NCBI GenBank assembly: GCA_021162935.1 | Contig: JAGGXR010000030.1 | Coordinates: forward strand, 1-64,000 | Direction of reading: 5' to 3' | Source: Deltaproteobacteria bacterium | Lineage (GTDB): Bacteria > Myxococcota_A > Polyangia > HGW-17 > SLPX01 | DNA: 64,000 nt | Shown here: positions 2,909 to 6,771 of the stretch, one piece after another | Layout of the letters: each line of letters opens with the position of its first letter | How positions within the stretch are numbered: position 1 is the stretch's first letter | Notes under the pieces: model-generated | The model's input: the letters and a program-made list of their open reading frames with translations, nothing else | What the model was told of the DNA's origin: nothing | The model's database searches: none | Position numbers and translations under genes: made by a program

Positions 2909-3229
2909 TATCTTGGTCCTTGTCTTGTCAGGTGGTCTGAGGGCAGAAAGTGACGAGCAGGCTTTCGGACCAATGTCCTGCCCCCGGTCAGGCATATGGT
3001 TTACGAAAACAGACTCCTCTACTCTTGGATAGTGTTTTCCCACCAAATTCAAAAAATACCAGTTGGCGTCCAAAACATCGAGCTGTTTCATGCAAGAGCT
3101 ATGGATGCGGAGCATACCAAAAAACGGCATGCTTGACGGCCTCAGACATAAACAATACGCTAACAGAGATTGTTGGGCCATATGTGACAGATCTGAAACG
3201 GTCGCATCGTTTGCACAAGGAGGGACGAC
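2909..3229. other. Divergent intergenic region, no gene seen
   Basis: This stretch separates the divergent beta-helix gene and the lipoprotein gene. It is visibly more A+T-rich than its neighbours and carries no frame with protein character. A TTGACG at 3133-3138 could be a -35 element for the lipoprotein gene, but no good -10 lies 16-18 bases downstream. The only clear signal is the Shine-Dalgarno AAGGAGGG at 3217-3224 just ahead of the lipoprotein start. Confidence 0.4.
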
Positions 3230-3646
3230 ATGGCGAACAGGGTGCACTGGATCAAACGACTCATGGCGGCAGGTCTCTCCGCAGGGACATCGCTCGTGAT
3301 CGCGGCCTGCTACGGCGTGTCCCAGGGAATGAACATAACGCGACTCGTCCGCGGTCGTGTCACCCACAACCAACAGGCCGTGCGGGGTCTGGAGGTCTGC
3401 GCCAAAGCCCCCTCGGAGGGTTCGGCCTGCGCCACGACCGACGACAACGGCGACTACTCCATCGATACCTATGAAACGATGGCGACGGACGCGAATGACC
3501 AAGGGTTCGACCTGGTAGTCACGGACACCGATGGTCCAGCAAACGGCGGCGAATTCCAGAAGGCCACTACTCATGTGGCGCCAGGTTCGGTGCCCGCCGA
3601 TGTGGACGTGGACGTTCGCCTCGTCTCCGACGCAACGAACCAGTAG
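3230..3646 (+). CDS. Small lipoprotein paired with radical SAM/SPASM enzyme
   Basis: 138 residues. ATG follows a strong Shine-Dalgarno (AAGGAGGG, spacing about five). The N-terminus has two basic residues, a hydrophobic stretch and a lipobox ending IAAC-Y-G with Cys27 as the lipidation site, so it should be membrane-anchored through lipid. The remainder resembles a single beta-sandwich of the carboxypeptidase-regulatory type (VRGRVTHNQQAVRGLEV, then DDNGDYSIDTYE). The CYG start of the mature protein and the immediately following radical SAM gene (13 bases downstream) match what I recall of the lipoprotein partner in the TIGR04133/TIGR04134 rSAM-lipoprotein pair, best known from Bacteroidetes. 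That it is a substrate of the enzyme is inference from pairing only. Confidence 0.75.
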   Translation: MANRVHWIKRLMAAGLSAGTSLVIAACYGVSQGMNITRLVRGRVTHNQQAVRGLEVCAKAPSEGSACATTDDNGDYSIDTYETMATDANDQGFDLVVTDTDGPANGGEFQKATTHVAPGSVPADVDVDVRLVSDATNQ

Positions 3647-3658
3647 TCGACCGCTTCC

Positions 3659-4822
3659 ATGTTTGCCTCTCTGCAGTCCTTTATTCAGGACACGAAATGG
3701 GGTCTGTACCAGAATTTGGAATCCGACCTCCACGACCTGCTCTACCTATTTTGGGAAGCCACCAGACAATGCAACCTGAATTGCCGCCACTGCGGTTCCG
3801 ACTGCAGCAAGGACAGCCATCCAGGCCTGCCCGCCCAGGTAGTCACCCAGACCCTCGAACGGATTGCCTCGGTCTATTCGGCGCAAGACATCGTTCTGGT
3901 GGTCACCGGCGGTGAACCGCTCGTCCGACCGGACCTCTTCGACGTCCTGAAAATAGCGGCCAGGCTCGGCTTTCGTCTCGGCATGGTCACCAATGGTATC
4001 TCGGTCAGCAAACCCATGGCGAAACGACTCGCCGAGGCCCATGTGGACAATATCGTGGTCTCTCTCGACGGTCCAAAGGAAACACACGATTGGCTCCGAA
4101 ACCGAGACGGTGCTTTCGAACGAGCCTGCCGTGGCATCGAAAACCTGCTCGAAGCCGGAGTACCCTTCGTCGAGGCCATCACCTGTGCCACACCGAAAAG
4201 CCTCGAACAACTCGACGAGACCTACCGCATCGTGAAAGACTTGGGGGCCCATGCCTGGCGCATCTTCAACATCTTCCCGGCGGGCCGAGCCAAAAACGAC
4301 CCGGAACTCCTGTTGACCGACGCGCAACTCGCCAGGCTCATCGAAAACGTGGCCAGGCTGCGCGCCATCGGACAGGCCGAAGGATTTCCCGTCAACCTGA
4401 GCGAAGAAGGGTTCTTGGGATGGGACTGGGAGAGCCGTGTGCGAGACTCACCCTACTTCTGCCGCGCCGGTATCAACATCGCCGGACTCATGGCGGACGG
4501 AGCCATCGCTGCCTGCCCGAATCTGCCCACCTGGATGAACCAGGGCAACGTGCTCCACGATGACTTCATAGACGTCTGGGAACAGGGCTATCGACTCTTC
4601 CGCAATCGCTCCTGGACGAAACAGGGCGCCTGTGCCACCTGTTCGAAGTGGAACGTGTGCCGAGGCAATTCGCTCCATCTGTGGCGGACGCCCGACGGCG
4701 GCCCTTCGTGGTGCCACTATCAGATTCTGCACCCAGACACCGATCTGCAGCGTTCGTTTCACCTTCCGCGGCCCGATTGGCTTCCCTTCCTCCATCTCCA
4801 ACGAACCAAACAAAAACGATAG
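3659..4822 (+). CDS. Radical SAM/SPASM protein (TIGR04133-like)
   Basis: 387 residues, full length for a radical SAM/SPASM protein. The SAM-cluster motif CNLNCRHC (CX3CX2C) lies at about residues 39-46, followed by VVTGGEPLVRPDLFD (the GGEP motif) near 80 and SLDGPKETHDWLR near 140. The C-terminal third carries a SPASM-type set of cysteines (CRAGINIAG, AACPNLP, CATCSKWNVCRGNS, WCHY), expected to hold one or two auxiliary Fe-S clusters. Relatives modify peptides or install thioether or other crosslinks using a 5'-deoxyadenosyl radical. The gene follows a small lipoprotein by 13 bases and forms an operon with it. The substrate is unknown; the lipoprotein or a downstream protein are candidates. 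A frameshifted gene follows about 50 bases later. Confidence 0.85.
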   Translation: MFASLQSFIQDTKWGLYQNLESDLHDLLYLFWEATRQCNLNCRHCGSDCSKDSHPGLPAQVVTQTLERIASVYSAQDIVLVVTGGEPLVRPDLFDVLKIAARLGFRLGMVTNGISVSKPMAKRLAEAHVDNIVVSLDGPKETHDWLRNRDGAFERACRGIENLLEAGVPFVEAITCATPKSLEQLDETYRIVKDLGAHAWRIFNIFPAGRAKNDPELLLTDAQLARLIENVARLRAIGQAEGFPVNLSEEGFLGWDWESRVRDSPYFCRAGINIAGLMADGAIAACPNLPTWMNQGNVLHDDFIDVWEQGYRLFRNRSWTKQGACATCSKWNVCRGNSLHLWRTPDGGPSWCHYQILHPDTDLQRSFHLPRPDWLPFLHLQRTKQKR

Positions 4823-4874: not shown

Positions 4875-5689
4875 GAATCGTCCTTATACGGTGCGAATAG
4901 GACGCTAAAGGATGTCGATCAAGATGCCAATACAATCACTGACGGACAACTGCAACACGACGCACAGGTGCGCCCCGACGGCGGCACATGTCCCTCGACC
5001 CTGGCCGGACGGCTCACGGTCACCGACGTGGATGTCTCGCCGGCCTCGGTGAACAGCAGAGCCGGCGGATACTTTTCGCGAAATACGCCGCCTATCTTGG
5101 CCAGCCTGTCCAACGGAACCGCGAAGGTTGCCTGGGTGGACGGATCGTCGACCCTCCACGTCACGAGTTCGGCTATGACGGTGCGACATTTCGCCCCGTG
5201 TGTCTATCGGATTGTTATCCACAAAAGGCGATCTTGTACCATCACGATTCCGCCGCCATCCATGCCGAGCCATCAGGAAACTGCTCGGGGAGCAGCGATG
5301 CGGAACTCGGCGGCCTGACCACGATCCAGGGTGGATTTTGGCTCACCTTCGTCTCGAACAACTCGCGGCAAAGTCACGACGTGGCCCTGGTCAAAGTTTT
5401 GGGCACAAACGTGGGCGCCATCCATTGGCTCACGGACACGGCGGGCATCGAAGAAACGAACGCACACTTGGTCCCATACGGCTCCAACTTCCTCGCGTTT
5501 TGGAAATCATCGAGCACGGTCAAGCTGGTGTTGCTGGATCCGAACGGCGCCATCCTCATGGGGCCCGAAGACCTCGCGGTGGACTTCACCCAGCAGACGG
5601 ACATGACGGACTTCTCCAATGGAGACGCCGGTTGGGCCTGGGGCAGCGGCAGCCACCTCAAAATCGCCCGGATCCGCCTCTGTCAGTAG
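4875..5689 (+). pseudogene. Frameshifted gene, probable secreted protein remnant
   Basis: Two frames together give one protein-like sequence. From 4875 one frame reads DVDQDANTITDGQLQHDAQV, then STLAGRLTVTDVDVSP and SNGTAKVAWVDGSSTLHVT. Around 5163-5172 the sense jumps to another frame that continues EFGYDGATF, FWLTFVSNNSR, SNFLAFWKSSSTVKLVLLD and ends at 5689. The first frame is closed on its 5' side by a TGA at 4872, so the N-terminus is also missing or out of frame. Content is like the WD/beta-propeller type secreted proteins of Myxococcota, but no family is assigned. It may be a decayed third gene of the radical SAM operon, a programmed frameshift (no slippery heptamer seen), or a sequencing error. 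The join position is approximate. Confidence 0.55.
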
Positions 5690-5838
5690 CCAAACGAAGA
5701 TCGGAATTCAGTCTCCACCAGGGCCCCACATCCAACTTGCTATTCAGAACCGACTGCGGTTGTTCCGTACCGAGTGCCATCGAGGCTCACAGGGCCGAGG
5801 CGGTCGCTTCAGGCGTGATCGCTCACCCCACCTGCGAC

Positions 5839-6771
5839 CTACAGGCCCCGCCAGGATTCCGGACGCAGAAACCGAGGGTCACGCTTACGAAGAATTCGAT
5901 CCACGGCATCGAGCAACGACAGCTTGTCCGTGGGTAGATGGCCCGAAAGCGCCAGGTAGTTCGATGCGTGGTTCGACCGAAACACACAATCGGTCATATC
6001 CATGTTGGCCAACAACTCGCGCAACTCTGCGACGATATCCCAAGGCGACATCTCGTGCCACTTTTCGTTGACGCCAACTCGATCAGGAGGTTCGACCCCG
6101 AGCCACTGCCATTCGGCCTCGTCCGGTTCAGTGATGGTCAGGGCGGCGGCGTACTCGGGCTGCATCCGACTCAACAGCCATCCCGTGTTTGCAGCGTGGC
6201 GCCGGCTCGAATCCCGCCCGGCCAGGCCCAGCAGGACCGTGGCCGACAAAACCAGACCCGCGGCATGCGCCTTGGCGGCCCCCTGTGCGATCTCCTCGGC
6301 AGTCGCCCCCTTGTGGATCTCGTCGAGCACAAGGTCGTCACCCGACTCCACGCCGTAGTAAAGCATGGTCAGACCGGCCCGACGAATCCGGGCGAGGTCG
6401 TCGTCGGTCTTGTGGAGCACATTCTGCGGGGTCGCGTAGCAGGTCACCCGCTCGAGATGCTCGAACCGGTCGAAGCAACGCTCCAAAATGGCCAGCATCC
6501 TGTCCGTGGGCAGCACCAAGGCGTCGCCGTCCGCCAGAAAAATGCGTCGCACCGACGGGCCGATGGCCTCCGCCGCCCGATCGAGGTCTGCAAACACCTC
6601 GGCTTCGGGCCGAACCCGAAATTGCTTCGTCTTGTACATGTGGCAGAAAGTGCAGCGATTGTGCGAGCAACCCAAAGAGGCCTGGATGAGCAGGGAAGAC
6701 GCCTCCGAAGGCGGTCGCCACAAGGGAATATCATATTCGATCCAGTCTCCGACCATGATCACATGACCCAA
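5839..6771 (-). CDS. Radical SAM protein with CX4CX2C cluster motif
   Basis: About 310 residues. The N-terminal part has the radical SAM cluster site GCSHNRCTFCHMY at about residues 34-46. The spacing of the first two cysteines is four residues rather than the usual three; the same form is known in a COG1032-like subgroup. Downstream come FLADGDALVLP (a GGEP-equivalent strand), YYGVESGDDLVL near 140 and ATVLLGLAGRD near 180, all typical of the partial TIM barrel of COG1032-type enzymes. There is no SPASM or B12-binding domain. Two in-frame ATG codons (6771 and 6756) could start it; neither has a strong Shine-Dalgarno. It is a single minus-strand gene, facing away from the lipoprotein gene at 6932. 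Reaction unknown. Confidence 0.8.
   Translation of the reverse strand: MGHVIMVGDWIEYDIPLWRPPSEASSLLIQASLGCSHNRCTFCHMYKTKQFRVRPEAEVFADLDRAAEAIGPSVRRIFLADGDALVLPTDRMLAILERCFDRFEHLERVTCYATPQNVLHKTDDDLARIRRAGLTMLYYGVESGDDLVLDEIHKGATAEEIAQGAAKAHAAGLVLSATVLLGLAGRDSSRRHAANTGWLLSRMQPEYAAALTITEPDEAEWQWLGVEPPDRVGVNEKWHEMSPWDIVAELRELLANMDMTDCVFRSNHASNYLALSGHLPTDKLSLLDAVDRILRKRDPRFLRPESWRGL

Follow-up and report, generated by a model that had tools for sequence, protein, structure and literature searches.

Two adjacent genes in the window (the whole 64,000-nucleotide stretch of DNA that was analyzed) most likely encode a real and conserved enzyme–substrate pair that is divergent from the TIGR04133/TIGR04134 families, and sequence comparison points to a splicease-type system that would act on exported lipoproteins without a PlpY partner. 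The features of the pair are as follows:

3218..3223 (+): AGGAGG, Shine-Dalgarno-like sequence of the lipoprotein gene, from direct reading of the sequence
3230..3646 (+): open reading frame of a 138-aa TIGR04134-like lipoprotein, the proposed substrate, from profile match and homologs
3230..3310 (+): signal peptide and lipobox, KRLMAAGLSAGTSLVIAAC, from alignment
3308..3316 (+): Cys27-Tyr28-Gly29 (TGC TAC GGC), proposed X-Tyr-Gly splice site, from two alignments
3344..3580 (+): carboxypeptidase-regulatory-like domain, residues 39–117, with a DxDG...NG motif, from profile matches
3659..4822 (+): 387-aa TIGR04133-like radical SAM/SPASM enzyme, proposed PlpY-less splicease-type maturase, from profiles, tree, and alignment
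3770..3793 (+): CNLNCRHC, [4Fe-4S]/SAM motif, followed by GS (HCGS), from alignment
4460..4714 (+): SPASM region with C268, C286 (ACPNLP), C325/C328/C334, and C352, from Pfam PF13186 and alignment

A Lipoprotein and a Radical SAM/SPASM Enzyme Are Encoded Side by Side

The initial annotation placed a 138-residue lipoprotein directly before a SPASM enzyme with CNLNCRHC and C-terminal cysteines, and both genes were recovered as described. The enzyme passes the Pfam cut-offs for Radical_SAM (PF04055, 84.2 bits versus 29.5) and SPASM (PF13186, 22.9 bits versus 21.5). Its cluster motif is C38-x3-C42-x2-C45, and the canonical SPASM pattern CX2CX5CX3C is present without its last cysteine (CRGNS), as is also the case in true TIGR04133 proteins. 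The lipoprotein starts with a signal peptide whose lipobox is IAAC; Tyr28-Gly29 follows Cys27 directly, and the Pfam match of the protein to CarboxypepD_reg (20.9 bits) is sub-threshold. AlphaFold models of the two proteins were poor (mean pLDDT 51 and 49) and were left unused. The close spacing of the two genes also held up, although the distance from stop codon to ATG is 12 bases and not 13.

The two-gene unit is isolated, with a divergent gene upstream and a broken open reading frame downstream, and a promoter and terminator scan returned nothing beyond chance. The broken frame (4905-5690, +) shifts between reading frames, as would a decayed gene or an assembly error, and no Pfam family matches its longest piece. 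Another radical SAM gene (5839-6771, −) carries CSHNRCTFC and is nearest to the HpnJ and B12-binding radical SAM families while scoring far below every family cut-off; we found no evidence linking it to the enzyme–lipoprotein pair. At 983-2908 (−) lies a gene for a chondroitinase-B-like polysaccharide lyase (PF14592, 42.9 bits), in which a Cys-rich Gly/Ser segment precedes a hydrophobic C-terminal tail, possibly a surface-sorting signal.

The Pair Is Divergent from TIGR04133 and TIGR04134

Among NCBIfam families, the enzyme matches TIGR04133 best (332.1 bits, E = 3.4e-99; cut-off 425 not reached), the next-best families scoring about 151 bits (AhbD 150.9, TIGR04103 151.5), and the lipoprotein matches TIGR04134 best, over residues 39–117 only (27.3 bits, E = 3.1e-6; cut-off 39.8 not reached). 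Because both proteins fall under the curated cut-offs, they are divergent relatives of these families and not members; the annotation was right about the nearest family for each protein, and membership is not supported. By comparison, enzymes from Treponema (L057, 451 bits), Parabacteroides (L058, 608 bits), and one member of the Myxococcota (L024, 555 bits) exceed the TIGR04133 cut-off. The genomic context of TIGR04134, an adjoining TIGR04133-type radical SAM gene and a lipoprotein signal, is present in the window, with 12-base spacing and the lipobox IAAC.

As in the TIGR04133/TIGR04134 pairs of Bacteroidetes and Treponema, the window genes are adjacent, and in the secreted lipoprotein an XYG motif precedes a carboxypeptidase-regulatory-like domain. 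However, in two Bacteroidetes proteins the YG lies about 10 residues past the lipid-attachment cysteine (CEYG), whereas in the window it follows that cysteine immediately, and the window enzyme differs from TIGR04133 enzymes in lying outside their core clade in the best tree. Both families are hypothetical equivalogs in their annotation, which assigns them no chemistry, and a literature search on TIGR04133, TIGR04134, and "radical SAM-associated putative lipoprotein" found no paper. The chemistry was earlier described as undefined; what can now be added is a specific hypothesis, tyramine excision at X-Tyr-Gly.

Related Enzymes Occur in Many Myxococcota Families

Finding this pair outside Bacteroidetes had been read as suggesting transfer. 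Relatives of the enzyme, counted at E ≤ 1e-40, are present in 34/284 Myxococcota genomes from many families, and the window enzyme forms a group with two sequences from Myxococcota MAGs (L039, L040; support 100/100). The Bacteroidetes/Treponema core is a clade of its own (100/99), within which two Myxococcota sequences (L024, L120) also fall, and the best tree places the window enzyme outside it. Recent acquisition of an ordinary TIGR04133/TIGR04134 system from Bacteroidetes would be consistent with the best family matches of the two proteins, with the presence of L024 and L120 inside the core, and with a topology joining the window enzyme to the core that is not formally rejected (AU P = 0.091). 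Nonetheless, such an acquisition is very improbable: both window proteins miss cut-offs of which the enzyme cut-off is exceeded by L024, L057, and L058, and the relatives in 34/284 Myxococcota genomes and the grouping with Myxococcota MAGs speak against it as well. Nothing points to a recent transfer into the window genome, and this part of the earlier reading is not supported.

Four sequences (L109, L110, L111, and L122) branch off as a side lineage of the enzyme, and their surroundings contain no YG protein; L110, the aligned member, lacks CGS after the cluster motif. This lineage perhaps has a different substrate or reaction.

Secreted X-Tyr-Gly Proteins Adjoin Most Related Enzymes

Among 38 loci whose enzyme scores >200 bits against the window enzyme, 30 have an adjacent same-strand secreted open reading frame with at least one X-Tyr-Gly motif and 8 have no adjacent YG protein. 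At 20/38 loci YG or YG(x)P is more frequent than in composition-preserving shuffles (P ≤ 0.01 each). Fold and signal type vary among the partners, which are of unrelated types:

small lipoproteins in which CYG stands at the lipobox (window, L012, L018, L024, Treponema)
lipoproteins of Bacteroidetes that carry CEYG(S/T)P
acidic proteins that repeat LYGP or MYGP (L014, L015, L017, L021, L031)
a protein with MYGIW repeats (L019)
Tat-signal-like (SRRSFL) proteins with KYGGPP repeats (L032, L035, L036)
cysteine-rich YYGP proteins (L022, L025, L033)

Across 120 XYG instances from 28 loci, only Tyr-Gly and a nearby proline are held in common. The residue before Tyr-Gly varies (K, L, E, Y, M, V, A, or C), and in most partners a proline follows within three residues. 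True TIGR04133/TIGR04134 pairs carry the motif as well, as CYGMP in Treponema, CEYGSP in Parabacteroides, and CEYGTP in Phocaeicola. The repeat-type partners tested match no Pfam or NCBIfam family above cut-off. Five Myxococcota loci (L014, L017, L019, L031, and L035) encode secreted proteins with 6–9 XYG repeats each (nine YG in L017 and seven in L035), which are candidate unnamed substrate families.

The single YG of the window lipoprotein is not significant against composition-preserving shuffles (P = 0.23), and the case in the window therefore rests on conservation in homologs: Cys27, Tyr28, and Gly29 are invariant in two alignments of lipoprotein homologs that share 16–40% identity. Together with the XYG partners at 30/38 loci, this invariance strongly supports the initial proposal that the lipoprotein is the substrate of the enzyme, and Tyr-Gly would be the reacting site. 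The conserved pairing anticipated by the annotation was likewise found in the neighborhood survey, although in the two closest relatives the lipoproteins are unlinked. The annotation had named beforehand the joint lack of a family match and of conserved pairing as the outcome that would count against it, and both a nearest-family match and conserved pairing were found.

Unlinked Lipoproteins in Genomes of Related Enzymes

The two closest enzymes (L039 and L040; 54–56% identity) have no lipoprotein alongside. The genome of L040 (G284; enzyme 56% identical) holds three unlinked homologs that share the signal and CYG of the window lipoprotein (KKIAIGCITAGSTLLIAACYGV, KKIAAGILTTGFSITLSACYGV, and KKLAIGALSAGTTIMIAACYGP) and a fourth paralog (L070) with a different signal and no YG, and the genome of L039 (G208) has a lipoprotein fragment at a contig end (KKIAAGTLSLGTTVLMAACYGP). 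In alignment, a signal pattern of K-x9-G together with ACYG is common to the window lipoprotein and four unlinked homologs from two related genomes. Most genomes without an adjacent YG protein still hold unlinked YG lipoproteins; for example, the enzyme of G155 stands alone at its locus and two CYG lipoproteins are encoded elsewhere in that genome, and G200 has unlinked EYG and DYGAP lipoproteins. Two related small lipoproteins from genomes where no enzyme was found (L078 and L085) have no YG. A DNA pattern for AACYG matches 193/269 genomes, which is background level, and so does not discriminate; in the window genome the only other [AST]ACYG match sits inside a large repeat protein.

The G208 fragment and one G284 copy are each preceded by what we take to be a phosphopentomutase-like gene. 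Such a gene precedes L065 and L066, unlinked CYG lipoproteins of two genomes, which suggests that these two are orthologous.

An alternative is that the enzyme acts on a lipid, a cofactor, or another peptide, the lipoprotein being an exported partner, binding protein, or immunity factor and its YG a sorting or structural feature. The separation of the lipoprotein from the enzyme gene in the two closest relatives is compatible with this alternative, and YG at positions +2/+3 past the lipidated cysteine could be a sorting signal. We consider it improbable, since YG is repeated many times per protein in repeat-type partners that share no common domain, is distant from the lipobox in Bacteroidetes, and is also found in proteins whose signal is of the Tat type (SRRSFL). 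Furthermore, across the 284 genomes strong matches (E < 1e-15) to the family of small YG lipoproteins are confined to enzyme-bearing genomes, a co-occurrence that is not an independent test because adjacent pairs supplied part of the profile.

The Enzyme Groups with PlpX-Type Spliceases

In the tested member of the PlpX type, tyramine is excised from X-Tyr-Gly (PMC11002830). PlpX would belong to TIGR04103, judging from its description in that work and from a Nostoc TIGR04103 locus at which we found a nif11 precursor with the C-terminus IALYGLPPELF. The window enzyme itself scores 151.5 bits against TIGR04103 and does not reach the cut-off of 725. In the tree, the window clade is joined with the clade that holds TIGR04103 at 94/92, apart from MftC, NirJ, and TIGR04053, a branch whose support is good and below maximal, with long-branched outgroups. 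Three segments are common to the two clades, namely HCGS following the last cysteine of the cluster motif (CxxxCxxCGS), G-[FY]-x-G, and CP[SN]LP, and both systems have X-Tyr-Gly(-x-Pro) in the partner protein. By contrast, MftC (mycofactocin), NirJ (heme), and TIGR04053 have a radical SAM/SPASM or SPASM-like architecture like that of the window enzyme, but lie outside the grouping, lack CGS past the third cysteine, and have no YG partner.

Besides TIGR04103, the sister clade takes in TIGR03913 and Myxococcota enzymes that neighbor YGAPP or CYGLPPC lipoproteins. The TIGR03913 "GDL motif peptide" SPASM maturases of Azospirillum fall in this clade with the Nostoc TIGR04103 enzyme; their partners, unlike that of the window, are short DUF1843 peptides, and the single locus examined shows no excess of XYG(x)P. 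The Myxococcota enzymes L112, L113, and L114, of the TIGR04103/TIGR03913 clade, adjoin zinc-ribbon lipoproteins that end in YGAPP or carry CYGLPPC, which indicates that the PlpX clade, too, has lipoproteins among its substrates.

The window system also differs in its partners. Its substrate would be a signal-peptide lipoprotein, whereas PlpX-type precursors carry a nif11 or proteusin leader, and PlpX-type spliceases have a PlpY partner, whereas no PlpY-like gene lies between or beside the window pair. A search of genome G000 with a Nostoc protein presumed to be PlpY-like gave nothing convincing, in a comparison that could miss a small protein.

A Proposed Splicing Reaction at Cys27-Tyr28-Gly29

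The conserved X-Tyr-Gly partners and the grouping with the PlpX clade lead us to infer splicease-type chemistry, and the enzyme is somewhat more probably than otherwise a PlpY-less splicease-type enzyme that acts on C27-Y28-G29 before export. Radical SAM enzymes are cytoplasmic, so the reaction should precede export: the enzyme would act on the prolipoprotein, excising the tyramine part of Tyr28 (C8H9NO, −135.07 Da) and joining the Tyr28 carbonyl to the Cys27 carbonyl, which would yield an alpha-keto-beta-amino (ketoamide) residue. The signal peptide, which is conserved, may serve as the recognition element. The modified lipoprotein, a small beta-sandwich surface protein, would then be exported, lipidated, and cleaved, so that its membrane anchor would bear a reactive ketoamide. 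In Bacteroidetes the YG does not adjoin the lipobox, so modification of the lipid-anchor cysteine can apply to some members at most. Possible uses of the ketoamide are as a covalent trap, in protease inhibition, or in surface attachment; protease inhibition by beta-residue products has been reported for spliceotides (PMC10373908). The products of PlpXY react with tetrazines (PMC10533398).

SPASM enzymes catalyze many reactions, and the motif evidence fixes the site only. The Tyr-Gly substrate could thus be right and the chemistry another, such as a tyrosine cross-link (cyclophane or ether), alpha/beta oxidation of tyrosine, or epimerization; after TIGR04133, moreover, several SPASM families score about equally. 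A three-residue cyclophane from tyrosine, as in triceptides, requires a beta-carbon on the third residue, and in 27/120 motifs (KYGGP) that residue is glycine, which has none. The clade grouping and the X-Tyr-Gly-(x)-Pro signature also fit spliceases specifically, and a different reaction at Tyr-Gly therefore seems unlikely to us, roughly a one-in-several prospect.

Implications

PMC10533398 cites 939 predicted splicease systems, and the window system may lie within them, so that its assignment is perhaps not new. We tentatively suggest, as a possibility that falls short of an even chance, that the whole TIGR04133-like family is a large class of PlpY-less protein spliceases that targets exported surface proteins and not small natural-product peptides. 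With tyramine excision as the proposed reaction, an unexplained annotation is reduced to one question, whether the lipoprotein is 135.07 Da lighter than encoded. If the proposal is true, further enzymes of possible use for PlpY-free placement of ketoamides in proteins would become available. The gene pair of Bacteroidetes, Treponema, and many Myxococcota would gain a testable reaction and site, and backbone splicing would be used on exported lipoproteins and on long repeat proteins with up to nine sites.
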